Under the pieces are notes generated by a model that saw only the letters and a program-made list of their open reading frames with translations, ran no database searches and was not told the origin of the DNA. A program made the translations under genes and the position numbers. Below, one piece after another: positions 2,634 through 22,374 of a stretch of 64,000 bases of DNA; the stretch's first letter is position 1; each line of letters starts with the position of its first letter. Source of the stretch: Martelella alba (GTDB lineage Bacteria; Pseudomonadota; Alphaproteobacteria; Rhizobiales; Rhizobiaceae). The stretch covers positions 1 to 64,000 of the forward strand of contig NZ_VHLG01000020.1 of assembly GCF_006516955.1 (NCBI RefSeq). The letters are read 5' to 3'.

Positions 2634-2758
2634 AGCGCTTCGTTGTCATAGCCGAATGCGATGACGCAGTTAATGGCGAGGAAGATCAGGCCAATCACGT
2701 AAGCGCGGACCAGATAGTGACGATCAAACGTGGCGAACAGGTATCGGATCTGGTTCAT
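2603..2758 (-). CDS. 51-residue membrane protein downstream of virB6
   Basis: This short gene encodes 51 residues beginning MNQIRYLFATFDRHYLVRAY, followed by one strongly hydrophobic helix (VIGLIFLAINCVIAFGY). Its ATG overlaps the virB6 stop codon (ATGA), and its 3' end overlaps the next small membrane gene by about 30 bp. The tight overlaps on both sides argue that it is translated. No homologue is recognised. It is probably an inner-membrane accessory of the VirB channel. Confidence 0.6.
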   Translation of the reverse strand: MNQIRYLFATFDRHYLVRAYVIGLIFLAINCVIAFGYDNEALCARNSLGFP

Positions 2759-3828: not shown

Positions 3829-4256
3829 TTGATCCCCTGGCTGCGGCAGTAGTTCGTGAACTGATTCAACATTCTCCCCCCTTCAACGACATAACCGGGG
3901 ATCCAAGGCGCATCGTCGGTGTTGAGGGGAAGGATTTTGGTCTGATATTCAGCCATAGCCGCGTCCCATGTCGGGAAACGTAATTCACAGGTGCATTTGC
4001 CAGCCTTCTTCAGATTTGCGGCAATCTGGCGAAAATGAATGGCCTCCAATATTCGCTCGCCGGGTTGTCCCTGTACCCATTTCTCTGCGATTTGCGGACG
4101 TCTATAGCCAGTGCAGCCGCCCAGCGTCGTATAGGTTTGTGCGTTTTGATCTTCATTCCTGAAGGTGAAAAATCCAGCGTCGGGCTGAGCCTGCTGAGCG
4201 GCGGCGGCGGTTGCAACGAGCGTTGCGGCGAGTGCCAGACATACGGTCCTATTCAT
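3825..4256 (-). CDS. Secreted cysteine-containing protein in the T4SS operon
   Basis: This 143-residue protein has a clear signal peptide (MNRTVCLALAATLVATAAAA) and a mature part with four cysteines (GGCTGY, KCTCEL and YCRSQ), suggesting two disulfides in the periplasm. No family is recognised. It overlaps virB11 upstream and virB6 downstream by 4 bp each, so it is a fixed part of the secretion operon and not a passenger. Possible roles are a periplasmic chaperone or stabiliser of the core complex, or an exclusion factor; these are guesses from position only. Confidence 0.75.
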   Translation of the reverse strand: MNRTVCLALAATLVATAAAAQQAQPDAGFFTFRNEDQNAQTYTTLGGCTGYRRPQIAEKWVQGQPGERILEAIHFRQIAANLKKAGKCTCELRFPTWDAAMAEYQTKILPLNTDDAPWIPGYVVEGGRMLNQFTNYCRSQGIK

Positions 4257-6540: not shown

Positions 6541-7256
6541 TTTGTTGGATCCATCATGGCGACGACGGTCTCGGTGGTTCCGGCACGCAGGACCCAATAT
6601 TGGGAAATCCCGCTGACGCGGACGGTTCCGTCGGCAGTTGTCGTGGAATTGACGGTGCGCTCTGGCCCCGTCTGTGTCTTGAAGATCGCAGGCACGCGGC
6701 CGGCATCGGGAAAGCGGAAATAGGTGAAGGCCCCGTCATCCCAGACCTGAAGCGGGGTGATGTCGTTCAGGACGTTGGCGCCGTATGACGTATAGGGGGC
6801 CGTGCGTTTGACCATCTTGCTGGATGCCGCGCTGCCCGTATTCTTGCTCGAAACCCCGCCATCGAAGCGGACGGCGTAATAGGCGGCATGGCCGGTTTCC
6901 CTGATCTCGAAATAATAGGCGCGGCGATTGGTATAGACGGAGGCGTTGGTCACGGCCCCTTCCGCCACCGGCTTGATGCCAAAGGCCTGTCCACCTGCTG
7001 CCGGCTGCGGCTCCTGAAACCCTGCGGTGTCACCCATCAGGATATTGGTGATGTATTCGCCGGGACCGAACTCGATCATGGTTGTGCGCAGCCGGTTGGT
7101 GTCGATCCTGTAGACTTGGCCGTCCACATAGCGGGCGTTTCTGACGCGGCTGTCATAGCGACCGGCAGCGGGAACGGATTCCGCCATGGCCGGGCTGGTC
7201 AGGACCGGAAGGACAGTCATAAGAACTGCAAGCGGTGCGATAAGAAACCGTCTCAC
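6537..7256 (-). CDS. virB9: VirB9 outer-membrane complex protein
   Basis: This 239-residue protein carries a signal peptide (ending near SPAMA) and the VirB9/CagX fold, including VYRIDTNRLRTTMIEFGPGE and the C-terminal ISQYWVLRAGTTETVVA motif. VirB9 forms the outer-membrane ring with VirB7 and VirB10. It overlaps virB8 upstream and virB10 downstream by 4 bp each. Confidence 0.94.
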   Translation of the reverse strand: MRRFLIAPLAVLMTVLPVLTSPAMAESVPAAGRYDSRVRNARYVDGQVYRIDTNRLRTTMIEFGPGEYITNILMGDTAGFQEPQPAAGGQAFGIKPVAEGAVTNASVYTNRRAYYFEIRETGHAAYYAVRFDGGVSSKNTGSAASSKMVKRTAPYTSYGANVLNDITPLQVWDDGAFTYFRFPDAGRVPAIFKTQTGPERTVNSTTTADGTVRVSGISQYWVLRAGTTETVVAMMDPTK

Positions 7257-7933
7257 TGGCTGGCCTCCTTTGCCTTGAAGCGTTCGGCGACCACCCGGTA
7301 ATCCTTGACCTTGAAGCCGAATGGATTGTTCCAGATATCCTGCAGGTCACGCAGCGTGGATGGCTCAAAATCATAGGCGAGCGTGACAACGAAGGTCCCC
7401 TCGCTGACGCCATCCGGGGAGGTCAGCCGTTTGGTGATGCGCGCTTGCGCCCGCTGATTAGAAATCTGCGTGATCGAGGCAATGGCAACGTCGATACGGG
7501 CGTGACTACCATAGACAGAAGGCGGATAGTTCGGATTGGCCGCGTCCCATAACCCGTTAAGCGAGGTCAGCGCTTCACCGGTCGAACGATCGATGACGCT
7601 TTTGATGCGCAGATCATTGTCGAGCTGGTTATAGGTCTCACGGTCATGCACATAGGCGTGAATCAGAGACTGAAGAACGGCCTCTTTCTCATGCATGCCG
7701 ATGGTACCCACGCGAGCCTGCGGCAAAGCCACGCCCGTGGCCGGATCGAAGGGCACGAGAACGGGCGGTGGCTTGTCGATGACGAGGGCTTCGACACCGG
7801 CAAGGAGGCAACCGGCAGCGCCGAAGGTGAGGCTGACGAGGGCAATTTTGCGCCACCGCGCTTCACGATCGCGCGCGCCGAAGATCAGTTCCTCTTCAAG
7901 AAGGTCTTTTACAGATGCCATGGCGGGCCTCAC
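7253..7933 (-). CDS. virB8: VirB8 inner-membrane assembly factor
   Basis: This 226-residue bitopic protein has a short cytoplasmic tail, one membrane helix (IALVSLTFGAAGCLLAGVEAL) and a periplasmic VirB8 domain with VHDRETYNQLDNDLRIKSV and NPFGFKVKDYRV near the end. VirB8 nucleates assembly of the VirB core. A second in-frame start four codons downstream (MASVKDLLEEE, 7921) is also plausible. Overlaps of 4 bp link it to virB5 and virB9. Confidence 0.93.
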   Translation of the reverse strand: MRPAMASVKDLLEEELIFGARDREARWRKIALVSLTFGAAGCLLAGVEALVIDKPPPVLVPFDPATGVALPQARVGTIGMHEKEAVLQSLIHAYVHDRETYNQLDNDLRIKSVIDRSTGEALTSLNGLWDAANPNYPPSVYGSHARIDVAIASITQISNQRAQARITKRLTSPDGVSEGTFVVTLAYDFEPSTLRDLQDIWNNPFGFKVKDYRVVAERFKAKEASQ

Positions 7934-8733
7934 TCGGTTGAAAACGTCATGTATTTGCGTTCTTCGGCAATCGCCGCTGCCGAGAGCACGCCGGCCTGGC
8001 CGTTATAGACAGCCTCGATCGACTGCAGTTCGAGCGACTTGGCGAGCTGGACGGAAAGCTCGGCCAGCATGCGGGTGTTGAGATCGATGGACTCTTTAAT
8101 GTCGGTGCTGCTCTTCGACATGTTGACGATCTTTTCGACCCGCTGCAGCGACTGACCTGTTTCGGAGTAGGTCTGTTCGGCGGACGCCGCCAGAACCGCG
8201 CCAGCCGAGGCCTGGCTTGCTGCCCGCTGCGCGCCGGGGTCTGCCGACTGCGCCAGTGCCGAGACATTTTCCTGAGACAGTCCGGCGGCGGACAAGGCCT
8301 GTGTGACGCCCTTGCGCATAACAGAGCTCTTGCCATCGGCGAAGCCGGACCAATTGCCGGTCTTGCCGGCATTGATGGTACCGAGCACGTCACCAAGACT
8401 GGATTTGAGAACACCGTCGAGCCTGGGGCCGGCGTCTTCAAGTTTCAGATCATCCATTGCCATGCCGACGATATCGCGCGCGCCGGAAAACTGGCCGTAG
8501 ATCTCTTTCAGTTGGGTAAGTTGCGCCTCAAGCCGCTTGATCTGTGTTTTAGCCTGTTCGAGGATACCCTTCTGAATGTCGGCGTCAGCCTCCATGACGA
8601 GCCATTGTGCATAGGTCTGGGCCAGACTTGCTTCATCGCTGGTCGGGATGCCTGATGGCAGGGACTGTGCATGGGATTGCGATGCGAGAAAGCCGGTCAC
8701 GGCGAGCGAAAGAATGAAGGATGTGCGTTTCAT
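7930..8733 (-). CDS. virB5: VirB5-like minor pilus subunit
   Basis: This 267-residue protein has a signal peptide (MKRTSFILSLAVTGFLASQSHA) and a helical body with heptad-like stretches (ILEQAKTQIKRLEAQLTQLKEIY), as expected for VirB5/TrbJ proteins at the pilus tip. I prefer the ATG at 8733; a GTG three codons upstream (8742) is the alternative. Its C-terminus EERKYMTFSTE resembles the end of the preceding gene product (GERAYMTFSNQ), indicating that the two proteins share a module. Confidence 0.85.
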   Translation of the reverse strand: MKRTSFILSLAVTGFLASQSHAQSLPSGIPTSDEASLAQTYAQWLVMEADADIQKGILEQAKTQIKRLEAQLTQLKEIYGQFSGARDIVGMAMDDLKLEDAGPRLDGVLKSSLGDVLGTINAGKTGNWSGFADGKSSVMRKGVTQALSAAGLSQENVSALAQSADPGAQRAASQASAGAVLAASAEQTYSETGQSLQRVEKIVNMSKSSTDIKESIDLNTRMLAELSVQLAKSLELQSIEAVYNGQAGVLSAAAIAEERKYMTFSTE

Positions 8734-8743
8734 CGGGGTCACT

Positions 8744-9889
8744 TCACTGATTGGAAAAAGTCATGTAGGCGCGTTCCCCGGCGCGGAGGGCGGCCTGTTG
8801 CAGGGCATCGGCACTGACCTGTTTTGTCTGGGCCGCCAGAAGGCGCAGACGCAGCACCATGATCCGTTCCATCTCGGCGCGGGCATAGGTGTTGATCACC
8901 CAGGCCTTGGCCGGATTGGTGTTGTTTTCCATCTGGATCATGATGGCTTTGACCCGGTACGCGATGGCGGCGATCTCGGCATTGAGGTTGGCGCCATAGG
9001 CCATGGCATTGTCGCTCGACATGGAAAAATTGGCTGAAGAGGCCAGCACCGGATCGATGGTGCCGGTTGCGTCAATGCCGCCGATCAGAGCGAGATATTC
9101 ATTGTATTTCTTCGGAATGACCTGGACGTAGTGTTGCGTCTCTTTGAACGGCGGTACGCCATTATGCTTGCGGACATTGCCGGGACCGGCATTATAGGCG
9201 GCAAGGCCATGAACGACGTTGCCGTTGAACATAATCAGCATATTGCCGAGATAGTTGGCACCGCCGCGCACCTGCGCGTTCGGGTCCGTCCTATAGGCGG
9301 GATTGACGCCCATGTCAGAGGCCGTACCCGGCATGAGCTGGGTCAGACCATAGGCGCCGACCGGCGATGTGACATGGGCGTTAAAGCGGCTTTCCTGCCA
9401 GATCAGCGCTTGCAGCAGCGCGCGCCACTGTGCCTGTGACAGGCCGGCCGCACTGACCCCTGCATTGCCATAGGTCGCCTTGGCACCGGCAATGATCACA
9501 TCTTCGACTGTCGGGGCAGCATCGCCGAAGGTCTGTGCGGCGGCTGGGTTGGTGTCGTCCGGATTATAGAGCTGGCTGACGGCCGCCTTGTCCTCGCCGG
9601 CGCCTTTTTCCAGCGTGTCTATCGTCTTTTCGGTACTCTCTGCCGGTACGCTTCCGGCATCGATCAGCCGGTCCAGTTCCTTGATGATATCGGCGTCGAG
9701 ATCGAGCAACTGACCGGCGCGGGAGCGCTTCTGGTCCTGTGTCGTCAGGTCCGCGTTCAAGGCGTCGAGGATATCGCTTTCCTGGTTTACAAGGGCTCTG
9801 TCGAACACGGGTATACCGGCGGCCAGAGCATTACCGGTCCCGGTCATCAGCAGCATGGCGACAGCCGCGATTTTTCGTTTATGGCGCAT
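8744..9889 (-). CDS. Lytic transglycosylase embedded in a VirB5-like protein
   Basis: This 381-residue secreted protein has a signal peptide ending at NALA. The mature start AGIPVFDRALV is typical of VirB5/TrbJ proteins. A central SLT domain follows, with catalytic Glu in QESRFNAH (about residue 166), PVGAYGLTQLMPGTA and AAYNAGPGNV. A helical C-terminus ends in GERAYMTFSNQ, matching the neighbouring VirB5. The protein therefore looks like a peptidoglycan-cleaving domain set within a VirB5-type scaffold. I chose the ATG at 9889, which overlaps the lipoprotein stop; upstream codons lie inside other genes. A separate VirB1-like enzyme is encoded at 13144-13818. Confidence 0.85.
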   Translation of the reverse strand: MRHKRKIAAVAMLLMTGTGNALAAGIPVFDRALVNQESDILDALNADLTTQDQKRSRAGQLLDLDADIIKELDRLIDAGSVPAESTEKTIDTLEKGAGEDKAAVSQLYNPDDTNPAAAQTFGDAAPTVEDVIIAGAKATYGNAGVSAAGLSQAQWRALLQALIWQESRFNAHVTSPVGAYGLTQLMPGTASDMGVNPAYRTDPNAQVRGGANYLGNMLIMFNGNVVHGLAAYNAGPGNVRKHNGVPPFKETQHYVQVIPKKYNEYLALIGGIDATGTIDPVLASSANFSMSSDNAMAYGANLNAEIAAIAYRVKAIMIQMENNTNPAKAWVINTYARAEMERIMVLRLRLLAAQTKQVSADALQQAALRAGERAYMTFSNQ

Positions 9890-10029
9890 CACTGCCCCCA
9901 CAGTTCCGGCAGTAGCGTGAAAGTGCAGCTTGCCTTGCCGTGCCGGAAGCAGTCGGAGCTTGCCGGATTGGTCGTGGCACAGGCAGAGACGGAAAGAACA
10001 AGGATCAGAAGAGAGATCAGCCGGATCAT
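9889..10029 (-). CDS. Small lipoprotein, VirB7 or entry-exclusion type
   Basis: This 46-residue protein starts MIRLISLLILVLSVSACATT. The lipobox SAC places the lipid on Cys17, followed by a short tail with two more Cys. Such lipoproteins after virB4 act either as VirB7, stabilising VirB9 in the outer membrane, or as entry-exclusion proteins; the sequence alone does not decide. It overlaps virB4 (4 bp) and the transglycosylase gene (TGATG). Confidence 0.8.
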   Translation of the reverse strand: MIRLISLLILVLSVSACATTNPASSDCFRHGKASCTFTLLPELWGQ

Positions 10030-12461
10030 GCAACATCCTCCTGGCTGGTGTTTGACTTGAGACGGCGGGAAAGAGCCGCGCGGCCGGCCGGGCCGCCGCC
10101 GAGGATTTTGAGGTCTTCGCCGAGGGCCGAGAGATCGACATTCAGCATCACCGAAGCTGCCTGATTGCGGACAAGGGCGAGGCGGGCATTGCCGTTTCCG
10201 TTCAGCAGGTTCGAGAGTTCCTGTTGGTTCAGATCGAGCGCCGCATAGTGTTCCGGCCTGGCATTGGCATTCGGAATGAGAATCTGGTTCGAGATCGCCT
10301 GAAGCATGGAAAGCCCTGCCCGGCTCTGTTCCAGCTGGGAGGGAAACTGTGTGACCATCAGCACCACGGCATTGAGCTTGCGCGCGGTCACTAGCCAGTT
10401 CTGAAGCTTTTCGGCGAAATAGTCGGTCGCCAGTGCCTTCCACACCTCGTCAATTATAATCACTGTTGGCCGGCGATCCTGCAACTTGCGCTCCAGGCGC
10501 TGGAACAGATAGCCGAGAATGGCTGTGCGTTCCTTGTCCTGCCCGGAATCAAGAAGTGCTGTCAGATCGAAGCCCATGACGGGCTCATCAAGCGCGAAAC
10601 TGTCTGTCTTGTTATCACCGAAAACCCAGCCGAAACGGCCGCCCGTTGTCCATTCGCGCACACGGCTTTCCAGATCGCCGTCATCATCGACATGGCGGAA
10701 GGAGCCAACCAGATGTTCAAAGGTGCGCAGGTGTTCAGGCAGGCTGGCATTTTCGGCAACAGCATCATGGATGGCCTGGATCTGGACCGGCGAAAACGGG
10801 TGGTCCGGCCGGTTCAGAAGCGCTGACAGCCAGTCACCAAGCCACATCTGGCCGATGGCATCGGTCTCGGCAAAGAGCGGGTTGAGGCCGGTCGGCCTGT
10901 CTGCCGTTATCGTGGAATAGGTTCCGCCCAGCGCCTCGATCTGGACTTCCAGCCCGCGCCGGTAGTCAAAGGCAAAGACCCGCGCATTGACGCGGGCAAG
11001 CTGGGCGGCGAGAAAGGCGACCAGCAGCGACTTGCCGCCACCGGTCGGCCCGAAGACAAGCCCGTGTCCGGCTGGCGGTTCGGCATCGGGCTTTCCTTCC
11101 GGATGAAACGAGAACTGAAAGCCGCTCCGGCCTGGCGTTGGAAAGATGCTGACGGGCGTTTGCCATGGCAGGCTCGCCCCGGCAAGGCCGGCCGGGGTCC
11201 GGTGCAGCGAGGCCATGCAGGCAAAGGCGCGATTGCTGATCAGCCCGGTTCTTGCACGATAGGTGGCGTTGCCAGGCCATTGGGCAAAATAGTGGCTCTG
11301 CCCGGAAAAGGCCTCGGTCACGATTTTCGTACCGCCTTCCTGGCTGATCTGGGAAAGTTCCGCCGAGGCGTTTTCGAGGTCTGTCTCATTGTCGGCATAG
11401 ACCGCGACCGTCATGTGATGGGTTCCGAACGTCTCAATCCCGCTTGCCAGCCGGTCAAGGCCGACACCAAGGGTCTCGCTTTCGGTGCGTGCGGCATCGC
11501 CAAGCCCGCTGCGCTGACGCATGGTGCGCTGGAATCGTTCGGTAACAATGTCCTCGGAGGCCGGTACGAATGAATGGGTGACGACCAGATCGGCGGGTAG
11601 ATTCAGCTCATCGAACATTCCGGCATTCGCCTGTCGCGGATAGGTCTTGACCGCAAAGATCCGCCCGAGCCGGTTCGGGACCGATCCGCCTGAGATAATG
11701 ACCTTCGTGCCCCGGAAGGTCGGACGATAATTGGCGACACTGCGCGACAGGACGGCGATTTCCGGGCTCGGCCAGGCTACGGTTTCTGTACCCGTGCCGA
11801 TGGCTTCGAGAAAGCCGACCAGCTCGCCGCTTTCACCGGTCAGAACCCGGCCATTCATCCCGGCCGTTGCCGACAGCACAATCCGCATGAGGTCATTGAG
11901 TGTCTGGATGCGGTCGCCCCTGTCATCAGTATAATGCGACCAGCCTGTTTCGCCATTGCCGGACAGCGCCGCACGGATGCGCTCGAAGCCCTGCAGTGTC
12001 TGTTGCAGCTTTTTGGGGCGGTTCAATATGGTGATCGTCAACGTAATATCGCGCAGGTGACGGTTTTGGAGATGCCGGCGCCATGTGCGATCGATATCCT
12101 GCGCGAAGCCAGTTTGGGTGACTTCAGCGAGTTCCGGTTTGAAGGGTTTGCTGATCTTGTGGACATAGAAGCTGTGTCCGGTACCCGCATGCGCGATGAT
12201 CTCGGCAATCCGGTTCTTCAGACCATCAATGTTCTCATCCGTTGCCGTGAGTGCATTCAGGCCGTCCACCCGAATGCACTGCATCAGCTCACCGCCGCGT
12301 GTCAGAACGGTTCGATCATCATCCTGAAGGGTGACGAAGGGCAGATCATCCTCGAACTGCAATTCATGTTTCATGGCACGCGGATAGATCCGTTTGCCAT
12401 TGGTGGAATTGAACAGCCTCTTGAAACCCTGCGAAAATTCCTTTCGGCTTTTACGGCTCAT
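10026..12461 (-). CDS. virB4: VirB4/CagE-family ATPase
   Basis: This is the largest T4SS ATPase (811 residues), required for pilus biogenesis and docked at the inner-membrane complex. It has an N-terminal CagE domain, Walker A GPTGGGKS (about residue 470) and Walker B TVIIIDEVWKAL (about 665). I chose the ATG at 12461 (MSRKSRKEFSQ) because a GGGGGGAT ribosome site lies eight bases upstream. It overlaps virB3 by about 11 bp and the lipoprotein gene by 4 bp. Confidence 0.95.
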   Translation of the reverse strand: MSRKSRKEFSQGFKRLFNSTNGKRIYPRAMKHELQFEDDLPFVTLQDDDRTVLTRGGELMQCIRVDGLNALTATDENIDGLKNRIAEIIAHAGTGHSFYVHKISKPFKPELAEVTQTGFAQDIDRTWRRHLQNRHLRDITLTITILNRPKKLQQTLQGFERIRAALSGNGETGWSHYTDDRGDRIQTLNDLMRIVLSATAGMNGRVLTGESGELVGFLEAIGTGTETVAWPSPEIAVLSRSVANYRPTFRGTKVIISGGSVPNRLGRIFAVKTYPRQANAGMFDELNLPADLVVTHSFVPASEDIVTERFQRTMRQRSGLGDAARTESETLGVGLDRLASGIETFGTHHMTVAVYADNETDLENASAELSQISQEGGTKIVTEAFSGQSHYFAQWPGNATYRARTGLISNRAFACMASLHRTPAGLAGASLPWQTPVSIFPTPGRSGFQFSFHPEGKPDAEPPAGHGLVFGPTGGGKSLLVAFLAAQLARVNARVFAFDYRRGLEVQIEALGGTYSTITADRPTGLNPLFAETDAIGQMWLGDWLSALLNRPDHPFSPVQIQAIHDAVAENASLPEHLRTFEHLVGSFRHVDDDGDLESRVREWTTGGRFGWVFGDNKTDSFALDEPVMGFDLTALLDSGQDKERTAILGYLFQRLERKLQDRRPTVIIIDEVWKALATDYFAEKLQNWLVTARKLNAVVLMVTQFPSQLEQSRAGLSMLQAISNQILIPNANARPEHYAALDLNQQELSNLLNGNGNARLALVRNQAASVMLNVDLSALGEDLKILGGGPAGRAALSRRLKSNTSQEDVA

Positions 12462-12732
12462 AGGAATATCCCCCCCAGATCCTGCGATTGCGGCAGACGC
12501 CAAAGTTCCGCGTCGTGACGGAAATGACGGTAAAAAAGTGCGGATCCCACTGGGTCAGGCCGTAGAGAACGGCGTAGCCTGGGATTGCGAAGGCGAGGCT
12601 CAGAAAGCTCTCGCTCCACATGAAGGCCAGCAGGCTTGTGACCATCAGCACGGCGAAGGCACCGGTCGGCAAGCCGAACACCTTTGTCGGCCGCAGCAGG
12701 CCGGTGTAAATTGTTTCGGTTTGAAGCGTCAT
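12451..12732 (-). CDS. virB3: VirB3 inner-membrane protein
   Basis: This 93-residue protein has two closely spaced hydrophobic segments (TGAFAVLMVTSLLAFMW and LAFAIPGYAVLYGL) and the family ending with aromatic and Arg residues (NRRIWGGYSYEP). The start MTLQTETIYTGLLRPTK fits VirB3. It directly precedes virB4, the standard VirB2-B3-B4 order. Confidence 0.9.
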   Translation of the reverse strand: MTLQTETIYTGLLRPTKVFGLPTGAFAVLMVTSLLAFMWSESFLSLAFAIPGYAVLYGLTQWDPHFFTVISVTTRNFGVCRNRRIWGGYSYEP

Positions 12733-12757
12733 GGTGCCCCCTTTGTCGTGGTTCAGA

Positions 12758-13063
12758 TCAGGAACTACTGCCCCAGAGGCTGTTGACGACGGTCGGAGCG
12801 GCGCCGACAAAGACGATGGCGACGACGATCCACATGGCCTGGCGGAAATCGATCACGCCGAAAAACCAGCTGATGAATACGCCCACAAGCGCCAGCGTGG
12901 CGGCGGTCTTGCCGAGCGTTCCGGTCAGGGCATCTACGAGCGACTGAAGAAAGTTCTGGATCGCATTTGTATTGACCGACTGGGCGAAGGCGGGTTCGCT
13001 GAAGATGAGCAGCGCCAGAAGAGCAGCACCCAGGATGCAGATTGCCCTAATAAGTAGATTCAT
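12758..13063 (-). CDS. virB2: VirB2-like major pilin
   Basis: This 101-residue pilin precursor has a long signal sequence (MNLLIRAICILGAALLALLI, ending at FAQS) and two hydrophobic helices separated by a short loop (GKTAATLALVGVFISWFFG and AMWIVVAIVFVGAAPTVV), as in VirB2/TrbC. I chose the internal ATG at 13063; the frame opens further upstream but those residues do not resemble a pilin. It lies between the VirB1-like enzyme and virB3. Confidence 0.9.
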   Translation of the reverse strand: MNLLIRAICILGAALLALLIFSEPAFAQSVNTNAIQNFLQSLVDALTGTLGKTAATLALVGVFISWFFGVIDFRQAMWIVVAIVFVGAAPTVVNSLWGSSS

Positions 13064-13143
13064 ATTATGTATACTAAATTTAAGATTGTGTTTGGAGGCG
13101 TGCGAAAACGGCACTGTGTCGAAAGCGGTGACAGCGGTCATGC

Positions 13144-13818
13144 TTATTTCCTGTCTGTGGTTTCAGAAGTTTTGAGACGGTGATAGATGGCCATGACCTT
13201 GCGGACGTGGCCTTGTGTTTCCGTATAGGGCGGAATTCCGCCATGCTGGGTGACCGCATCGGGTCCGGCATTATAGGCCGCCAGCGCCAGCTCCTTGGAG
13301 CCGAAGCGATCAAGCTGCATCAGCAGATAACGGGCCGAGCCGTCGAGGTTCTGTTTGGGATCATGGGGATCAACACCAAGATGGGCCGCCGTTTCCGGCA
13401 TCAGTTGGCCGAGGCCAATGGCACCCACGTGACTGATGCTCGATTGCCGGTAATTGCTTTCAATAGCAATATTGGCAGAAAACAAAGCCATCCAGTCGGT
13501 CACTGACAGGCCCGTCTTGCGCAAACCGGTGTTTCCGGCATAGCGCAACGCCGTTTCTTCAATTGCGGTCTGAACGTCTGCCGTCGGGATAGACGTTTTG
13601 ATCGTGACGGATTGTTCCGGCGCTTGCGTTTCCACCTTTGCCTGAAGCTTTGAGCACAGTGGCACGCCGCCAGGACCGTAGCTGAAAGAAAACGCCCCCT
13701 GCCCTTGTGCGCAGGCGTGAGATGTGCGAACCCCGCCAGGACCGTAGTTAAATGCAAAGTCGGCAGCGATAGCTGGGACGCCAGCTGAAACGGCCAGCAC
13801 CAGACCAGCAAGGGTCAG
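13144..13818 (-). CDS. virB1: VirB1-like lytic transglycosylase (start uncertain)
   Basis: The secreted SLT-domain enzyme opens the peptidoglycan for the channel. Catalytic Glu lies in NIAIESNYRQS, followed by VGAIGLGQLMPETA and AAYNAGPDAV. The mature N-terminus has two copies of a FxYGPGGV motif, each followed by a Cys. The start is unclear: a signal peptide (LTLAGLVLAVSAGVPAIAAD) begins at CTG 13818, a GTG lies at 13800, and no ATG is close. The frame stays open to 14211, but that part overlaps another gene and does not look like protein. I give the CTG position as the outer limit. Confidence 0.75.
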   Translation of the reverse strand: MTLAGLVLAVSAGVPAIAADFAFNYGPGGVRTSHACAQGQGAFSFSYGPGGVPLCSKLQAKVETQAPEQSVTIKTSIPTADVQTAIEETALRYAGNTGLRKTGLSVTDWMALFSANIAIESNYRQSSISHVGAIGLGQLMPETAAHLGVDPHDPKQNLDGSARYLLMQLDRFGSKELALAAYNAGPDAVTQHGGIPPYTETQGHVRKVMAIYHRLKTSETTDRK

Positions 13819-14180
13819 TCGGTATTGATTTCCTCTACGGGGGGCAAGGGGACGGGCAGGATGGTCTCGCCCGGCATCATTTCCCGATAATAGCGAAACA
13901 GCGCGGCGAAGGTCCTGAAGTAGCGAATTTCTGCAGTGTGGTAGACGACGACACGATAGATTGTCGGGTCGTCCGGCAACCGAACATGGGCCCGCCAAGC
14001 GAGTTTCGCGTTCAAGAGGACAGTTTCGACTTCCAGTCTTCCGCTTTTCCGTCTGATGAGATGCCTGATGGCAAAGGTATTGGCTGGTTGGACGACAACA
14101 CGGGTTGTGGACACGCCACCTCCATAAAGCATGAGCGACACGTCCGAAGCATTTGCTTCGGATCGAGCCGTGTTTTTCAT
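13815..14180 (-). CDS. Hypothetical protein at the head of the T4SS operon
   Basis: This 121-residue, Arg-rich protein lacks a signal peptide and ends VPLPPVEEINTD. No family is recognised. It is the first gene of the minus-strand virB operon, and its stop overlaps the presumed start region of the VirB1-like gene. Cytoplasmic location and first position would allow a regulatory role, but there is no motif to support one. The competing frame on the same strand (13819-14211) looks less protein-like. Confidence 0.55.
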   Translation of the reverse strand: MKNTARSEANASDVSLMLYGGGVSTTRVVVQPANTFAIRHLIRRKSGRLEVETVLLNAKLAWRAHVRLPDDPTIYRVVVYHTAEIRYFRTFAALFRYYREMMPGETILPVPLPPVEEINTD

Positions 14181-14384
14181 GTTCTAAGAAATATATCAAT
14201 ACACCGGTCATTTTTATGCTTTGAGCACTAAGTCATAAAATGATCAATATTGAGTATATGATAATAATTACAAAATATTAATTAAATTTCAAGATGTATT
14301 GCTAGAAGAGTCCGCAATTGATTCTTGCGGCGTTCCAATGCAGCGAGCTCCCGCTACATTCGAAATTTTCCAAAGAGGTGCGAT

Positions 14385-15243: not shown

Positions 15244-15888
15244 ATGAATAGCAGCCAGGGGCGGAATCCCACCGGGTGGCGAAAGCAGACAATCGCGCGG
15301 TTGCAGTATGCACAAATGGCTAAGGCGGCCGCGTTCGGACGGCATAGCCGCGCTGAAATCCGGCACCTGCTCAACCGGATCCGTCCGGCGCTCGGGCTCG
15401 GTACGACGCAAACCTTCCTGCTCAACATTCTTTTTGATGCGACCTATGAGCAGGACTGGCAGGTGGGCAGAGCGCCGATTGTCTGGCCGTCCAATGAAAC
15501 GCTGGCGCGCCAACTCAGCATCAGTGTCAACGCCACCCGCGATGCGCTGCGCTTTCTCGCCGACGAAGGCCTGATCGCCTATCAGAACAGCGCCAATTGC
15601 CGGCGTGCTGGACAGCGCGATAGAAACGGCAGGATCATTTATGCCTATGGCATCAACCTTGCCCTTCTAGAAGCCCGCTATGATGAACTGAAGGCGCAGG
15701 CCGATCATCACGACGATGAGACAGCGCGGCGCCGGGTTCTGCGCAACGATATCACGTCGCTGCGCCGGACGATCGAGGCAACGATTGAGATGGCTCGTGA
15801 CCGGGTCCCGGCCGAACGGCTGAAGACGTTTGAGCGCCAGCTTGGTCTGATCGGTCCTGCCTGGGACGGATCGGCCGGGCCAGCATAA
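15244..15888 (+). CDS. repC: RepC-like replication initiator, short version
   Basis: The 214-residue product matches the N-terminal winged-helix half of RepC, the initiator of repABC plasmids: GRHSRAEIRHLLNRIRP, PIVWPSNETLARQLS, FLADEGLIAYQNS and GRIIYAYGINLALL. Full RepC is about 400 residues, so the C-terminal half is absent; other frames after the stop do not restore it before the IS remnant at 16022. RepA and RepB are also absent here. It is either a decayed plasmid initiator or a short RepC-related protein. The antisense RNA upstream supports descent from a true repC. Confidence 0.8.
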   Translation: MNSSQGRNPTGWRKQTIARLQYAQMAKAAAFGRHSRAEIRHLLNRIRPALGLGTTQTFLLNILFDATYEQDWQVGRAPIVWPSNETLARQLSISVNATRDALRFLADEGLIAYQNSANCRRAGQRDRNGRIIYAYGINLALLEARYDELKAQADHHDDETARRRVLRNDITSLRRTIEATIEMARDRVPAERLKTFERQLGLIGPAWDGSAGPA

Positions 15889-16021: not shown

Positions 16022-16817
16022 TTACAACCTACAACGCATCCTGATACTGTAGGCGGTAGCCTCATAATGCTTAAGCCAGATGCGTGCTGAGAAGAGCTTT
16101 ATGGCTGCAAGGTAGTTGTCAGCACGCTTGTCGTGGCGCGTAGCGATGCATCGCGCTTCTTTGAGGCGATTGAAAAAGCGTTCCACCAGATTTCGGTAAC
16201 GGTAGAGAAACCGGCTGAAAGCAAAGGTCTTTCTCCGGTTCCGTTTGGTCGGAATGTTTGCGAAGGCCTTATGTCTCGCTGCTGCATCCCGGATTGCATC
16301 GGTATCGTAGCCGCGATCGGCAAGAAGTGTTATGCCCGCGTGGAGTTAGGTCAGCAGCCCCTCGGCGTAGCTGCAATCGGCGTGCTGACCTTCTGACAGA
16401 CACAGGTCTATTGGTAGCCCGTCGGCATCGACAACGGCATGGATTTTTGTCGTCAGGCCACCTCTGGAACGTCCCATGCTTCGATTGGAGCCCCCTTTTT
16501 ACCGGTGGCACCATGCTGGTGGACGTGGACACAAGAGGAGTCGATCATCTGGATATCGCCGTCAAAGGCAGCGGAAATGGAAGCAAGAAGCCGGTCCCAG
16601 ACGCCCGCCTTCCGCCAGCGGACAAACCGGTTATAGCAGGTGGTGTATGGCCCATAACGCTCCGGCACATCGGCCCAAGGACTGCCGGTGCGAAAGCGCC
16701 ACAGGATGCCTTGATGATCCGACGATCGTTGACCCTCGGCACGCCGCGGCTGTTGTTGGGAAGAAGCGGCTCGATAACCGCCCACTCGAAATCCGTCAGA
16801 TCAAAACGTCGTCTCAT
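16022..16817 (-). pseudogene. IS5-family (IS427-like) transposase remnant
   Basis: The minus strand encodes, in pieces, a DDE transposase starting MRRRFDLTDFEWAVIEPLLP. After NDRRIIK one base is lost and the protein continues in another frame (ILWRFRTGSPWADVPERYG). A second frame change occurs at an AAAAAGGGGG run (this one could be the programmed frameshift of the group). A TAA interrupts the last part before HAGITLLADRGYD. The end RNLVERFFNRLKEARCIATR is preserved. The first break and the nonsense codon make it inactive. It separates the repC region from the luxI operon. Confidence 0.85.
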
Positions 16818-16983
16818 CAAGGGCTCCTTTCGGGAAACCATTGAATCAAAACGAATACTCGTCGTGAACCCATCAATTTATGAGTTTACGCCATAGTGCA
16901 GGTGTCCCGTTAGGCCCACAAAATGGTCGAGACCGTTGCGGTGGCGAAACGCTGCCCACCGCCGCAACGAACGATGCATTTTT

Positions 16984-17808
16984 TTAGGCGGAAGAACACA
17001 ACCGCAAGACGTTGCGTTCTTCCGTCCGTTCGGGGCGTTGAGGGTTTGCCTGGCGGTTCGCCTTGCCTCGTTTCATCAATCGGGCCAGCAGTGACAATCT
17101 CTTGCGCGTGGCATCATCACGAAGAAGTTCCATGAAGATTTCATTCTCTAGCGCAATTCTGTCATCTTCTCTGTTCCTCTGGTGAAGCAGCCACCGCGTT
17201 TGTCTCAATGATTGACGCGGGAGCTTTGCCATGCGAGACGCAATAAGACAGGCTTCTCGTTCAAGGTTTACCTGATCCACGATCTCTGTGACAATTCCGG
17301 TTGATCTGGCGTCTCCGACCGACAGCGACTTCCCTAGAACGAAAATACTGAAAGCATTCCTGAGTCCAGTCAGTTCGGGCAGAAGTTGGCTCGATGCTGA
17401 TTCTGGCGCCAGCCCCCATTGAACAAAAGGCGATCGAAACGTGCTTTCGGGTGATGCAAGAACAACATCGAAGTGAAGAAGCATGGTCATGCCGATCCCA
17501 ACGGCAGGACCATCAACTGCCGCAATCAAAGGAATGTGTGAACTGATCAGCGCGCTAAAAAAACGTTTTGATGATCGGTTCAGATTACCTAGATCCTCTT
17601 TGTTCATGAAAGATGTTACGTCACTGCCTTCGCAAAATGATCGACTGCTGCTGGTAAACAAGACGCAGGCGATTTCCGGGTTTCGATTTGCCGCCTCCAG
17701 GAGTTTGGCAAGTCTTTCAAAGGTAGATGCTCGAAATCCTGGTTCCACAATCGTCCACTGAAAGCGAACAATCAGGAAACCATCCGCTCTTTCGATTTTT
17801 AGTGGCAT
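16984..17808 (-). CDS. Crotonase-family enzyme (enoyl-CoA hydratase/isomerase) in the luxI operon
   Basis: This 274-residue protein has the crotonase fold: oxyanion-hole motifs in SFCEGSDV (about 57-64) and DGPAVGIGMTMLLHFD (99-114), and GLAPESASS (132-140). The last motif resembles enoyl-CoA isomerases, with Glu136 as the likely catalytic acid. It would act on acyl-CoA or acyl-ACP double bonds. It is the third gene of an operon: its ATG overlaps the 71-residue gene by 10 bp, which overlaps luxI. This suggests that it shapes the acyl chain of the signal. The basic last 30 residues are unlike the family and may be run-on toward the IS junction. Confidence 0.85.
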   Translation of the reverse strand: MPLKIERADGFLIVRFQWTIVEPGFRASTFERLAKLLEAANRNPEIACVLFTSSSRSFCEGSDVTSFMNKEDLGNLNRSSKRFFSALISSHIPLIAAVDGPAVGIGMTMLLHFDVVLASPESTFRSPFVQWGLAPESASSQLLPELTGLRNAFSIFVLGKSLSVGDARSTGIVTEIVDQVNLEREACLIASRMAKLPRQSLRQTRWLLHQRNREDDRIALENEIFMELLRDDATRKRLSLLARLMKRGKANRQANPQRPERTEERNVLRLCSSA

Positions 17809-18014
17809 AGGTCGTCTCCCACGCTTGCTGAATGACGGGTGCCAGCTTGAAGGGTGTCGTAGGCGCGGTAGATATACATTGCGGTCTCCGCGTGACCTAG
17901 TTTCATCGAAACCTGCAGGGCAAAGTCCAGGAGATCTGTCAAATATCCTTTGTCAATTTGACGGACCGCCAGTTGGTCGCCTGTACGTTCCTTTAGTTCA
18001 GAGCGCGGCTTCAT
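17799..18014 (-). CDS. 71-residue protein between luxI and the crotonase
   Basis: The product starts MKPRSELKERTGDQLAVRQ and is probably a small helical cytoplasmic protein (GYLTDLLDFALQVSMKLGHAETAMYIYRAYD in two pieces of helix). No family is recognised. It overlaps luxI by 17 bp and the crotonase gene by 10 bp, strong evidence for coupled translation. Small proteins encoded directly after luxI genes occur in rhizobia (CinS after CinI, for example), but I see no clear similarity to CinS. It may regulate or assist signal synthesis. Confidence 0.7.
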   Translation of the reverse strand: MKPRSELKERTGDQLAVRQIDKGYLTDLLDFALQVSMKLGHAETAMYIYRAYDTLQAGTRHSASVGDDLCH

Positions 18015-18645
18015 AATGACCTCCGATCTTAGCCAGAGAGCCGAGAAATTGCACGACCGGCTCGTCAGTACCACGATAGCGGCGAACGGTTTGCAAGGTG
18101 GCCTCATCAAAATTTGCCAGGCTTGCGACGATTTTTTGATTTCCAATTTGTGTTTCCAACCCCAGAGGCTGGACGAAGAAGCCGAGTTGAATCGCACGAA
18201 GAACCCAGATCGTCTCAAACTCGATGATCACTTTGCGTATGCCAGACGCTAGCCCCCATTCTATGAAGCCAACCATCAATTCGCTTCCGACCGAGCCGAC
18301 TTCCCTGCGGCTTTGCCGATATGGACGATCAACGCAATAGCGCGTCAGTTCGTAGATGTCGGGTCCCTTTGGAGAGTCAATCTTGCACAGCTGCGGGAAT
18401 AGATCAGTCAAAAGGTGCGGCTTGTCTGAAGGAAGCATTCGTTGATAGCCAACGACCCGACCATCACGAACCGAAAGATGATGAATAGCATCGTCTGTGT
18501 CGAATTGATCAATCTCAAATTTCGCATCAGCCCGCGGCATGTCCCATTTGAGTTCTTCTATAAATATCCTGCGTCTAAGTTCGAATGCTTGTTCTATTAA
18601 CTCAGGATAGTATTGCGCATCGCGCCCGGAAATAACGTACATCAT
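17998..18645 (-). CDS. LuxI-family acyl-homoserine lactone synthase
   Basis: The 215-residue protein has the residues conserved in AHL synthases: Arg24-26, Phe28, Trp34, Asp46 and Asp49 in EIDQFDTDD, Arg69 (GYQRML), Phe83, Glu99 and Arg102 (YELTRYCVD). It would join an acyl chain from acyl-ACP or acyl-CoA to S-adenosylmethionine. I chose the ATG at 18645 because GGGGGA lies seven bases upstream; an adjacent ATG (18642) is equivalent. A TATAAT hexamer on the minus strand (18753-18748), about 100 bp upstream, may be the -10 box. No LuxR partner is in the window. The operon lies between two IS5 remnants. Confidence 0.93.
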   Translation of the reverse strand: MMYVISGRDAQYYPELIEQAFELRRRIFIEELKWDMPRADAKFEIDQFDTDDAIHHLSVRDGRVVGYQRMLPSDKPHLLTDLFPQLCKIDSPKGPDIYELTRYCVDRPYRQSRREVGSVGSELMVGFIEWGLASGIRKVIIEFETIWVLRAIQLGFFVQPLGLETQIGNQKIVASLANFDEATLQTVRRYRGTDEPVVQFLGSLAKIGGHYEAAL

Positions 18646-18850
18646 AACATAATCCCCCATTCAGATTGTGTTGCGATTTAATATTCTTGGGATTTTGAGT
18701 CGTGTGTGCGGGTGCGATCGCGGGAATTGCATTAACCATAAAAACTAATTATAGTTCAAATGAAATGTTAATATATACTTACAGAATCAGATTATTTTAG
18801 ATAATTGTAATTTAATATCAGAGGCAGATTCGAATTTATTCGGTTTAATT

Positions 18851-19450
18851 TCATAGTCTTGCGATGCGTCTTGTGAAGAGCTGTATGGAGGCGATGATGA
18901 GCCCTGCGGCTGCCGATGCGATGGTTTGTTCGAAATCCTTGGCAGGGCGGCGGTTGCGATTGAGCCATGTCAGGGTTCTCTCGACGACCCAGCGCCGGGG
19001 CAGCACCTCGAAACCTTGCGCCGTGTCGGAGCGTTTCATGATTTTGTCCGTCCACTTGCCAATCTGGCGCAGCGCCAGCCTGAGCTTGTCGCTCGCATAG
19101 CCGCCTTCGGCAAAAATGTGCCGCAGCCATGGAAAGCGCCTGATGATTTCTCGCAGCACCAGCGATGCGCCGTCACGATACTGGATATTGGCCGTGTGGA
19201 TCACGGCGTGAACGAGATTGCCATCCGTATCTGTGAGAATGTGGCACTTGCGCCCCTTGACCTTCTTGCCCGCATCATATCCGCAAGGCCCACCGCTTTC
19301 GGTGGTTTTTACGCTCTGGCGTCGATTACGCCAGCGCTTGGCGACGCCTCTCGGCCTTTCGCTTCGCGTCCGATCAGCAACAGCGCATGATTGAGCAGGC
19401 GTCACAGCCCATTGTCGCGCCACAGATAGAACCAGAGCGCCGTATGGTGA
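18851..19450 (-). pseudogene. IS5-family (IS1031-like) transposase remnant
   Basis: The intact stretch SVKTTESGGPCGYDAGKK, FAEGGYASDKLRLALRQIG and RWVVERTLTWLNRNRR is the C-terminal catalytic half of an IS5-family transposase. Upstream, similarity continues in another frame (WFYLWRDNGL, then a TGA where Trp is expected), with a one-base loss before SVKTTES. The N-terminal third is missing, cut off near the IS3 end at about 19506. The gene is dead and different in sequence from the IS5 remnant at 16022-16817. Confidence 0.85.
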
Positions 19451-19554
19451 AATGACCTGCCACTGAATTTTCATCCGGCTGCGATTAGAGCCTGGGCGGT
19501 TTTGCAGTGCGCCCATTTATTGGACCGCCGGCTGTTAGATTTTTCCGGCTCTGA

Positions 19555-19845
19555 TCACGATGGCGGGCTGGTCGCGCCACCGGGATTATGCAACGCGATC
19601 GGGACGTTGTATCCGATCGCCGAATGAGGACGATCCTCATTGTAGTGTCTACGCCAATCTTCCAACTTTTCGCGCGCATCCGTAAGGGTCATGAACCAGT
19701 TCGCATTCAGGCATTCCGAACGCAACTTGCTGTTAAAGGCTTCGATGAAGCCGTTGTCAGTCGGTTTGCCAGGCCGCGAGAAGTCCAGCGTAACCTTGTT
19801 CACATAGGCCCAGAGATCGAGGTCACGGGAGATAAATTCGCTGCC
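19555..19845 (-). pseudogene. IS3-family orfB, 3' part
   Basis: This fragment encodes the end of an rve-type integrase: GSEFISRDLDLWAYVNKV, DFSRPGKPTDNGFIEAFNSK and WRRHYNEDRPHSAIGYN. It includes the last catalytic Glu region. It joins in frame to the 5' part at 21479-22000 once the IS110-type element is removed (VDN followed by GSEF). Confidence 0.85.
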
Positions 19846-21478
19846 ATAGCACGTCGGGAAACAGTGCTGTCGATAGGTTGTGGCCACCCGCGGAGCCCAA
19901 AATAGCGTAGTGGGTGGCCATAACCGGTCCCAGGTCTCAACAGTGGTTTTGCTTAACCACACCGCTGAGGGTGCGTAGCACGGCTATGACCATCCATCAC
20001 ACTAATCCCGCGACCTTGCTGGTTGCTATCGATATCTCCAAGCATCGCCACGAAGTCTTGATTGGAATTCCAGGCAAGCAACGCCATCGTCGTATGACGG
20101 TCACCAATACGCTTGAGGACTTCAGAAGACTGTCTGCGGCCCTAGCCAGCTACGATCTGCCGGTGCGGATCGGGTTCGAGGCGACCGGTAACTATCACCG
20201 GCCGCTGGCGCACCATCTCGGCCAGTACGGGTTTGAGCTGAAGCTCGTCTCTTCTGTCGGCCTCGCCCGGACGCGGGAGGCCCTGCACAATAGCTGGGAC
20301 AAGAATGACCCGAAGGATGCTCAGGTTATCCTGCACATGCTCGAGATCGGAGCAGTGCAGTTTTTCCATGATCCCCTGGTCGTCGGAACAGCAGACATTC
20401 AGGAGCTCTCGAAGACCCACGAGATCGTCTCACGCTCCAAGACCGAGCTTTGGCACCGCATCCTGACGCATTACCTGCCACTCTACTTCCCCGAGGCTGA
20501 GCGGTTTCATCGAAGCTCTCGGACCGACTGGTTCCTGGCGTTTCTCGAGAAGTATCCGACACCGACGATGATTACGACCATGAACCGGGACGCCCTCATC
20601 GCAGATGCCTGGCAGGTGGTTGGCAAGAAGGTCTCCAAAGAGCGCTTGCTTTCAGACATTTACGCCACCCCTGTCGGCTCCGTGGGACTGCCTGTGCATC
20701 CGGATTCCGACGCTGTTCGCATGTTCCGCCTTGTCCTTGCCGAAGGCAGAAGCCTTGTTCGCCAACGCAACGAGATCGAGTCCAGGGCAGTCGAGCTGCT
20801 CTCCGAGTTGCCGGACTATCAGTTGCTGACAACCATTCCCGGTATCGGTCCGATCAACGCCATGACCATTCTGGCCGAGGCAGGTGACCTGCGCCGGTTC
20901 CGACATCACCGGCAATTCCTGAAGTTCTGCGGCATGGACCTCGCCACTGTGCAGTCTGGCATGTTCCGCGGTCAAAGCCGGATATCGAAGTACGGCAACG
21001 CCCGCTTGCGTCGTACGCTCTGGATGGCCGGCCAGACTGCCGTTCTCAAGCGGACCAACAGCTTTCGTGACAAGTTCGAACGCTACATCTCGAAAGACCG
21101 ACACAACGCTCATCTGCGTCGCAAGGCTTACACCGCGATCGCGGCAAAGATGGCGCGCACCGTACACGCCGTAGTTAAACACGACGAACCCTATCGCACC
21201 TTCTTCGAGGGGGTGAGCCCAGGCGGAAGGACCTCTCTCTGACACGAGCCGTGGAGGCAGGCATCTGACCTCGTAGACAATGTTCGGGCCTTCTGCTTGG
21301 GAATTGGGATCTCGTATTAAGGACGGTGAGGGCCGCCATCGCGCGTACCCTGTGTTTGCTATGGAAGAGATCATTTCTTGACGGCAGAGCCCGTCTGGGC
21401 AATCTTGACAAGGCACCCGGGACACCGGATGCCCTATGACCTGCTGACCTAAGCAGCCAGATTTTCTCGACATAGGAC
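19846..21478 (+). mobile_element. IS110-family (IS1111-like) element inside IS3 orfB
   Basis: Comparing the two halves of the interrupted orfB gives sharp boundaries: the host reads VDN up to 21479 and resumes GSEF at 19845, leaving an insert of about 1.63 kb. The insert has one intact plus-strand transposase. Short subterminal inverted repeats are present (TGGTTTTGCTTA near 19942 and TAAGCAGCCA near 21449), as found in the IS1111 group, and no target duplication is evident. It looks like the youngest insertion in this cluster. Confidence 0.75.
19986..21242 (+). CDS. IS110/IS1111-family transposase (DEDD type)
   Basis: The 418-residue protein has the N-terminal RuvC-like DEDD domain (LLVAIDISKHRHEVLIG, GFEATGNYHRPLAHHL, NDPKDAQVILHML) and the C-terminal IS116/IS110/IS902 domain (LLTTIPGIGPINAMTILAEAG, FCGMDLATVQSGMFRG). 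The length is normal and the frame intact. I chose the ATG at 19986 (MTIHHTNPATLL); an upstream in-frame start (19914) adds 24 unrelated residues. Confidence 0.92.
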   Translation: MTIHHTNPATLLVAIDISKHRHEVLIGIPGKQRHRRMTVTNTLEDFRRLSAALASYDLPVRIGFEATGNYHRPLAHHLGQYGFELKLVSSVGLARTREALHNSWDKNDPKDAQVILHMLEIGAVQFFHDPLVVGTADIQELSKTHEIVSRSKTELWHRILTHYLPLYFPEAERFHRSSRTDWFLAFLEKYPTPTMITTMNRDALIADAWQVVGKKVSKERLLSDIYATPVGSVGLPVHPDSDAVRMFRLVLAEGRSLVRQRNEIESRAVELLSELPDYQLLTTIPGIGPINAMTILAEAGDLRRFRHHRQFLKFCGMDLATVQSGMFRGQSRISKYGNARLRRTLWMAGQTAVLKRTNSFRDKFERYISKDRHNAHLRRKAYTAIAAKMARTVHAVVKHDEPYRTFFEGVSPGGRTSL

Positions 21479-22000
21479 GTTGTCGACCCGTATCGTCTTC
21501 GGGTAGCCGCCTTTCCTGCAAATCCGTTCCAGCGTTTGCACCACATCCTCACCGCGATAGGTAAAGCGCGGGTCGGTGGCCGGGCTGAAGCGGGAATGGA
21601 TATCCACAATGGTCAGGATTCGCAGCTTCTTGCCTGCCGCGAGCTGATCATGAACGAAGTCCATCGCCCAGATATCGTTCGGCCCTACGGCCTCCTGGCG
21701 ATCCTCGCGCAGCTTTGCCTTCACCCGGCGTTTCGGGTGCTTGTTCCTGAGCTGAAGCCCTAACGCCTTGTAAATCCTGCGGGTCTTCTTGATATTGACT
21801 GTCCAGCCTTCTCGTCGAAGGAGCACGTGAACACGCCGATAGCCAAACCGGACGCGTGTCTCGCATATCTCCTTGATCCGTCTTTCAAGAGCGGCCTGAC
21901 CGATGCGGCGGGACTTGTAATGGTAGGTCGAGGTGTCGAACGTCAGAACCTTGCAGGCTCGCCTGATCGACCCCCCCCATTCTACCAGCATCCCATCCAC
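21479..22000 (-). pseudogene. IS3-family orfB, 5' part
   Basis: The N-terminal half of an IS3-type transposase: an HTH_21-like region (RRIKEICETRVRFGYRRVH), then the start of the rve core (NDIWAMDFVHDQLAAGKK, ILTIVDIHSRFSPA) up to IRVDN. Here the IS110-type insertion breaks the gene, and the frame then reads a few IS110 codons to a stop. Confidence 0.85.
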
Positions 22001-22023
22001 AAGCTTGCGCGTTCGGGCAGGCC

Positions 22024-22289
22024 TCAGAGCTTTCGGCGGATGACATCCTGAAGCATCTCGCGGTCCAGCGTCAGATCCGCTACGATCCGTTTCAGTTTCG
22101 CATTTTCATCTTCCAAAGCCTTCAGCCGGCGCATCTCGTCAGGCAGAAGACCTGCATATTTTTTCTTCCAGTTGAAGTAGGTCGCCTGGCTGATCCCAGC
22201 CTTGCGGCAAATCTCCGCCACAGGCACACCGTCATCCCCTGCTTCAGAATAAACGCCTTCTGGGCGTCCGAAAACTTCGATGCCTTCAT
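22024..22289 (-). pseudogene. IS3-family orfA with a frameshift
   Basis: orfA starts MKASKFSDAQKAFILKQG and then, after loss of one base at the GGGG run, continues in another frame as DDGVPVAEICRKAGISQATY, NWKKKYAGLLPDEMRRL and DREMLQDVIRRKL. This is the HTH plus leucine-zipper protein of IS407-like elements. The frameshift removes the DNA-binding protein, so the element is inactive even without the IS110-type insertion. Confidence 0.85.
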
Positions 22290-22374
22290 CTCTTCCACTC
22301 CTTCTCCCAGCCAGAAAAATACCGCGGAAAACTCCAACATCAAACGATCTAGTTTTCAGGGGGCAGAGCACAGG

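Follow-up and report, generated by a model that had tools for sequence, protein, structure and literature searches.

A luxI, small-protein and crotonase gene unit in Martelella alba, probably a sister variant of the R1-I1-crotonase quorum-sensing circuit

A conserved three-gene unit

A luxI-type gene, a gene for a small protein of 71 residues and a crotonase gene form a conserved, overlapping unit in Martelella alba. It lies in a stretch of 64,000 nucleotides (the window), part of contig 8 (C8) of a 4.99-Mb genome in 55 contigs. To judge from sequence and gene order, the unit is a version of the R1-I1-crotonase circuit that has an additional small component, another residue at the catalytic-acid position and its receptor gene elsewhere in the genome, and the trio probably makes an unusual cell-to-cell signal. 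The combination of LuxI with a crotonase is already known; new are the sister branch, the small gene, residue Glu136 of the crotonase, the displaced luxR and the test of a family of luxI-linked small proteins.

The R1-I1-crotonase circuit (mlr5637-mlr5638-mlr5639) was described in Mesorhizobium japonicum by Suo et al. 2023 (PMC10470506). According to that paper, I1 makes 2E,4E-C12:2-HSL, R1 senses this compound very selectively, and deletion of the adjacent crotonase gene leaves little of it. The luxI and crotonase genes are separated by 8 bp, and the same arrangement is reported in two other genera. The LuxI-crotonase pairing in mesorhizobia that a first-pass annotation of the window had mentioned is thus published (PMC10470506). 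Among the literature matches listed, as titles and abstract openings with subscription journals mostly outside, there was no other paper on the circuit; nor did the titles and abstract openings of these matches name a small protein in it.

The genes of the unit and the putative operator in front of it are as follows.

16984-17808, minus strand: crotonase gene (PF00378, 1e-29)
17799-18014, minus strand: gene for the 71-residue small protein (open reading frame overlapping both neighbours)
17998-18645, minus strand: luxI-type acyl-homoserine lactone synthase gene, acyl-CoA type (PF00765, 6.6e-23)
18713-18722, minus strand: lux-box-like palindrome CGCGATCGCA, with its centre about 72 bp before the start of luxI

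The trio spans 16984-18645 on the minus strand in the order luxI, small gene, crotonase, with luxI starting at the ATG at 18645 (an alternative upstream ATG is at 18660). luxI and the small gene overlap by 17 nt, and the small gene and the crotonase gene by 10 nt, which agrees with the overlaps first described. Both are identical in Martelella HB161492 (locus L003), where the luxI stop is at 5648 and the small gene start at 5632, and the small gene stop at 5847 and the crotonase start at 5838. The overlap of 17 nt makes co-transcription likely, and we infer that the gene overlaps may couple translation of the three genes.

Between the two Martelella loci, dN/dS is about 0.08 for luxR, about 0.11 for luxI, 0.09-0.14 for the crotonase gene and about 0.15 for the small gene, the last value being from YN00 (NG86 gave no dS) for one pair and for a gene that overlaps its neighbours. 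Such low ratios in all four genes make purifying selection likely. The small reading frame is taken as a real gene because its product is 63% identical in L003 and because of its dN/dS of about 0.15; a chance reading frame is ruled out by this identity and by the identical overlaps.

Distribution and descent

A scan of 84,980 species genomes, limited to close relatives, gave three loci with a LuxI relative. In L003 luxR, luxI, the small gene and the crotonase gene stand in a row, and in L004 (Hyphomicrobiales MAG BM303) the order is luxR, luxI, a 72-residue open reading frame and crotonase. The third, L005 (Sphingomonas), has no crotonase match at 1e-10. Identity to the window LuxI is 81% in L003, 58-59% in L004 and 33% in L005; for the crotonase it is 70-72% in L003 and 46% in L004, and for the L004 counterpart of the small protein 24%. 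The neighbourhood search that had been proposed as a check thus recovers the trio in two further loci, L003 and L004.

Within the same family, a LuxI match (E<=1e-20) was found in 96 of 394 sampled genomes, and loci were obtained for 30 places including the window. Among the other 29 loci, 23 (L009-L031) have a crotonase gene directly after luxI, and six (L032-L037) have none directly after luxI within flanks of about 1.5 kb. In 22 of the 23 crotonase-only loci luxR precedes luxI; the remaining one, L010, is cut short there. No crotonase match accompanied 20 lower-scoring LuxI matches from genomes of the same family. At class level, six of 385 genomes including the window's own match LuxI at 1e-30, and the other five (six loci) have no crotonase match nearby. 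Within the genus, this luxI is present in two of 13 genomes, own included. LuxI matches 711 of 72,556 plasmid records, every one below 60% identity, and the DNA of the unit matches none of them (E<=1e-5).

A small gene between luxI and crotonase is present in the window, L003 and L004, and absent from all 23 crotonase-only loci. That it was overlooked there is unlikely, since the gap between the luxI stop and the crotonase start (implied from alignment with the window crotonase) is 17-89 bp in all 23 and leaves no room for it. None of the six best background matches to the small-protein profile described below falls in a crotonase-only locus, and a weak background match in L024, obtained with an earlier profile, is on the strand opposite to luxI.

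In a LuxI tree of 50 rows, all crotonase-linked LuxIs form one clade (100/99), which is divided into the three with small gene and crotonase (94/84, slightly short of the 95/80 threshold of the tree program; recovered in 96% of 200 bootstrap trees) and the 23 crotonase-only members (99/97). The crotonase tree (45 rows, including 19 paralogues from five genomes) has a luxI-linked clade (99/92) and repeats the split, with 100/97 for the small-gene loci and 100/99 for the crotonase-only loci; its deeper part is unsure, as the paralogue branches are long. Since the two trees match, luxI and crotonase have most likely travelled together from one ancestor. Independent recruitment of two crotonase types is rejected by the tree with paralogues, several of whose branches are long. 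By sequence, the window together with L003 and L004 most likely represents a sister branch of the crotonase-only type, the latter being identified with the Mesorhizobium type by the published gene order and family membership and not through mlr5638 itself.

Synthase and crotonase

The best solved relatives of the window LuxI are 5w8a ('autoinducer synthase') and 6wn0 (4-coumaroyl-HSL synthase), with E of about 1e-27. We take 5w8a to be BjaI, and both to be synthases of the acyl-CoA type. R24, F28, W34, D46, D49, R69, F83, E99 and R102, presumably the LuxI signature residues, are invariant in a 3-row LuxI alignment, in line with the earlier statement that all expected catalytic residues are present.

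The best solved match of the crotonase is 5ve2 (2e-34), which is annotated as enoyl-CoA hydratase, and the ECI2 structures 2f6q, 4u19, 4u18 and 4u1a match with E of 7.5e-27 (2f6q) to 1.8e-26. Glu136, described from the outset as isomerase-like, aligns with the Glu of the PE motif in the three solved relatives aligned. The protein thus resembles ECI2 in belonging to the crotonase family by sequence and in carrying the PE-motif Glu, an ECI feature that is presumably the residue used by ECI2. It has no hydratase Glu pair, with T108 and F128 at what are presumably those sites. It differs from ECI2 in being encoded in a quorum-sensing operon and in having a best solved match annotated as a hydratase. 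The window protein therefore appears to be a member of the crotonase superfamily that is enoyl-CoA isomerase-like, with Glu136 as the candidate catalytic acid.

The catalytic-acid position is Glu in the three small-gene loci (3/3) and Asp in the crotonase-only loci (23/23). The three nearest crotonase paralogues carry Glu as well, and Asp thus looks derived. T108, F128 and P135 are common to all 26 crotonases of luxI loci. A change of acyl-chain unsaturation by the crotonase, as originally proposed, is well supported by homology, because deletion of the sister crotonase leaves little of the unusual signal (PMC10470506). The window enzyme has Glu against Asp in that characterised branch, and its product may therefore differ.

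The small protein

With a limit of E 1, neither Pfam nor NCBIfam gave a match to the small protein, which bears out the earlier remark that it has no recognised family. A PDB profile search gave one match, at E 1.7, and no solved relative better than chance. The AlphaFold2 model from a 3-row alignment is a helical hairpin (H14-39 and H42-62, mean pLDDT 71.6); the L004 protein, modelled without an alignment, gave a poor model of three helices (pLDDT 60.4). No match was found in the 72,556 plasmid records (E<=0.1). Among 397 genomes of the order two have a match, the own genome and G308, the G308 match (L007, contig 55, 15170-15373; E 4.3e-4, 30%) lying inside an open frame of 559 residues.

Small open reading frames of about 50-80 residues directly 3' of luxI recur in Alphaproteobacteria, with a core like YLLxMALxE, among 152 surveyed loci (some places twice) and 30 more, which are not a random sample. 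In L032, L033, L035, L055, L066, L070 and L074 such a frame follows luxI, and about 1.5-2.5 kb of surrounding sequence gives no crotonase match. The survey suggests that small proteins directly after luxI are more widespread than the two studied cases known to us, CinS and MmaP.

A family profile was trained on 16 of these proteins. In held-out tests 15 of them ranked 1-5 and L192 ranked 18, ranks that are partly circular because the members were picked by eye for their position after luxI and their shared core; three doubtful proteins outside the training set ranked 4, 13 and 13. The background consisted of 4639 open reading frames, mostly from luxI neighbourhoods, with one likely real member (L042) among them. 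The small protein of BM303 (L004) ranked 1 of 3318 (E 4.8e-4); with a smaller profile made earlier it ranked 5 of 3387. For the proteins of the window and L003 the ranks were 119 and 381 of 3319; with L004 added to the training set they were 107 and 290 of 3314, and with earlier profiles 157 and 143 of 3286, and 230 and 37 of 2996. hhalign of the window protein against the luxI-linked family gave a probability of 1%. Membership of the window protein in this family thus finds no support from phmmer, held-out profiles or hhalign, and only the analogy is kept. To judge from its position, the window protein occupies the slot that a luxI-linked small protein has in the sister operon, and may either have diverged beyond recognition or have replaced one.

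CinS of Rhizobium leguminosarum (PMC4149787) and MmaP of Methylobacterium fujisawaense (PMC10790750) are encoded after luxI and produced together with the synthase, and both have PraR, an XRE regulator, as a binding partner. PraR is marked in the relevant passage of PMC10790750 by downstream genes for SAM synthetase and a tRNA methyltransferase. In the own genome, an XRE gene at G000:C50:183666 encodes a protein with 53% identity over 83 residues to the XRE protein of L054; the latter was judged PraR-like, and the frame after the C50 gene recognised as metK-like, by eye; this frame would supply the SAM-synthetase mark, the first of the two. The window small gene resembles those of CinS and MmaP in standing directly after luxI (with the 17-nt overlap, which is kept in L003), and the XRE gene on C50 is a candidate for PraR. 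It differs in being followed by a crotonase gene, and its product has no detectable kinship to the collected luxI-linked family, in which the membership of CinS and MmaP is itself assumed. Our best guess, by analogy of position, size and predicted helices, is that the small protein may be CinS/MmaP-like and bind a PraR-type regulator.

Further cases were seen in the course of the survey. The own genome's other luxI (L001/L169, contig 22, about 321130-321990) has a 57-residue family protein encoded 22 bp downstream. On contig 6 (L042, about 45481-46026) a luxR-type gene is followed by a likely family member, with no luxI in that stretch; this reading frame scores 17.1 bits (E 0.0011) against the family profile. 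In L036 and L054 luxI is followed at a short distance by a gene for an XRE regulator that looks like PraR by eye, a placement that would tie regulators of the PraR type to quorum sensing.

Receptor, operator and flanking elements

The surroundings of the unit contain the following features.

501-14211, minus strand: type IV secretion/conjugation cluster (PF02534 coupling protein, TrbL, T2SSE, TrbI, CagX)
15244-15888, plus strand: open reading frame of 214 residues with a RepC N-terminal domain (PF03428, 9.8e-39)
16453-16841, minus strand: IS4/5-family transposase remnant in the downstream flank (PF13340, two overlapping open reading frames)
18851-19516, minus strand: IS4/5-family transposase open reading frame in the upstream flank (PF01609, 7.8e-24)

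These features agree with the IS remnants on both sides, and the conjugation and RepC region nearby, that had been noted from the sequence. PF13340 matches the two remnant frames with E of 4.9e-18 and 3.5e-5, one of them below the family cut-off. The cluster at 501-14211 also includes T4SS, CagE/TrbE, TrbC and SLT matches, and the 214-residue frame is, we presume, short for a RepC. Upstream of the unit, at 19555-22371, is a pile of IS110-family and other transposase/integrase-core frames, the latter presumably IS3-like.

The first-pass annotation had found no LuxR nearby. This holds for contig C8, where one LuxR query gave no match (E<=1), but not for the genome, in which an intact cognate luxR is present at C20:8617-9348 (243 residues, 88% identical to the L003 luxR). 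C20 is a 10.1-kb contig with a relaxase gene at 6424-7818 (PF03432). Its homology to L003 comprises luxR plus about 160 bp of preceding sequence and ends at the luxR stop codon, and the homology between the window and L003 begins at the luxI start region; the ancestral luxR-luxI neighbourhood has thus probably been split. The upstream IS4/5-family frame stands about at the luxR position of L003, and the place before luxI in the window is now taken by it. The 452 bp after the C20 luxR are found nowhere else in the genome, and the only match shared by C20 and the window is 51 bp inside the IS remnant.

The palindrome before luxI has the form YGCGATCGCA at about -72 in both the window and L003, and the exact pattern CGnGATCnCG is absent from both; the 64-kb window contains just two copies of GCGATCGC. 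CGnGATCnCG is found 59-67 bp before the luxI start in 19 of the 26 crotonase loci (L004 plus 18 crotonase-only ones), loci that are related by descent, and L019 has a second copy at -82. The pattern occurs in 0.4% of letter-shuffled 200-bp stretches, a figure to be read with the pattern having been chosen after looking. In M. japonicum an inverted repeat is centred 61.5 bp before I1, according to Suo et al. 2023 (PMC10470506).

The window thus shares with R1-I1-crotonase an acyl-CoA-type LuxI, a crotonase gene downstream, a LuxR partner and a palindrome before luxI; its LuxI falls in one clade with the 23 crotonase-only loci, though in a separate sister branch, and its crotonase is co-descended with luxI (clade 99/92). 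It differs in the extra small gene between luxI and crotonase, in a catalytic-acid position occupied by Glu and not by Asp, and in a luxR that is on contig C20 and not directly upstream of luxI.

Proposed function

We consider it moderately probable that the trio forms the signal-producing part of a LuxR/LuxI circuit sister to R1-I1-crotonase, with a dienoyl-HSL as signal, a displaced LuxR and a small protein that acts on another regulator. The ECI-like crotonase would move a double bond on a medium-chain unsaturated acyl-CoA. In the most economical route, expected from standard beta-oxidation, three rounds would convert cis-vaccenate to 5Z-C12:1-CoA, dehydrogenation would give 2E,5Z-C12:2-CoA, and isomerisation into conjugation would give 2E,4E-C12:2-CoA. 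LuxI would then join the acyl group to S-adenosylmethionine, producing a 2,4-dienoyl-HSL or a close isomer, which the displaced LuxR would sense so as to activate the operon through the palindrome at -72. The small, probably helical protein would be made in step with the synthase and, as a regulator that binds proteins, relay the quorum signal to another transcription factor, in the way that CinS and MmaP act on PraR. A Roseobacter paper reports 2E,5Z- and 3E,5Z-C12:2-HSL and notes that 2E,4E-C12:2-HSL would result if the double bond moved into conjugation in the course of biosynthesis.

It is possible, if somewhat doubtful, that the crotonase carries out only the ECI-type step and that the signal is a mono-unsaturated or a 2,5- or 3,5-dienoyl HSL instead of 2E,4E-C12:2-HSL. 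This would fit the occurrence of Glu in the window branch (3/3) and the three nearest paralogues, against Asp in the Mesorhizobium-type branch (23/23), but Glu and Asp can both carry out this type of proton transfer, the other motif residues (T108, F128, P135) are common to all 26 crotonases, and the LuxIs form one clade.

The small protein could also be a helper of signal synthesis and no regulator, binding LuxI and/or the crotonase and channelling a labile dienoyl-CoA or setting substrate choice, which we think unlikely. Its location between the enzyme genes, with overlaps that are constant across the Martelella pair, favours matched amounts; by profile it is unlike the luxI-linked family; and among the 26 crotonase loci the Glu form occurs in exactly the three that have a small gene. 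However, 23 crotonase loci do without it, the published system has an 8-bp spacer in its place, and the L004 counterpart fits a family that is also found after luxI with no crotonase nearby. A more far-reaching version, likewise rather unlikely in our judgement, would make the window branch a distinct four-part circuit of LuxR, a CoA-type LuxI, a small-protein family of its own and a Glu-type crotonase, which would produce a dienoyl-HSL isomer other than 2E,4E-C12:2-HSL; the small protein would then be a new component that hands dienoyl-CoA from the crotonase to LuxI or inactivates a non-PraR regulator.

Decay of the unit, with IS insertions having cut off luxR so that luxI and luxR are no longer a working circuit, is suggested by the IS remnants on both sides, by a luxR on another contig whose homology to the intact Martelella locus stops at the luxR stop codon, and by the presence of luxI in only two of 13 genus genomes (own included), but is improbable in view of four intact reading frames with low dN/dS and a palindrome kept in both Martelella loci.

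How the crotonase helps to make the dienoyl-HSL is posed as a question in PMC10470506. At the catalytic position the sister branch supplies a naturally occurring Glu/Asp comparison, and its operon has an additional component; product structure and the enzyme step thus become testable by simple gene swaps. The operon also joins two lines of work, on signal-modifying enzymes and on luxI-linked small proteins.

Other luxI neighbourhoods

Other genes were seen 3' of luxI. In L005, L073 and the plasmid matches H21, H23, H25 and H29, luxI is overlapped or followed by a phytanoyl-CoA dioxygenase-like gene, identified by annotation in the four plasmid records and by eye in L005 and L073; its product is perhaps another luxI-coupled modifying enzyme. 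In L069 a reading frame that is polyketide-synthase/ketoacyl-synthase-like by eye lies 3' of luxI, and a second luxI is present about 2 kb away on the same contig.
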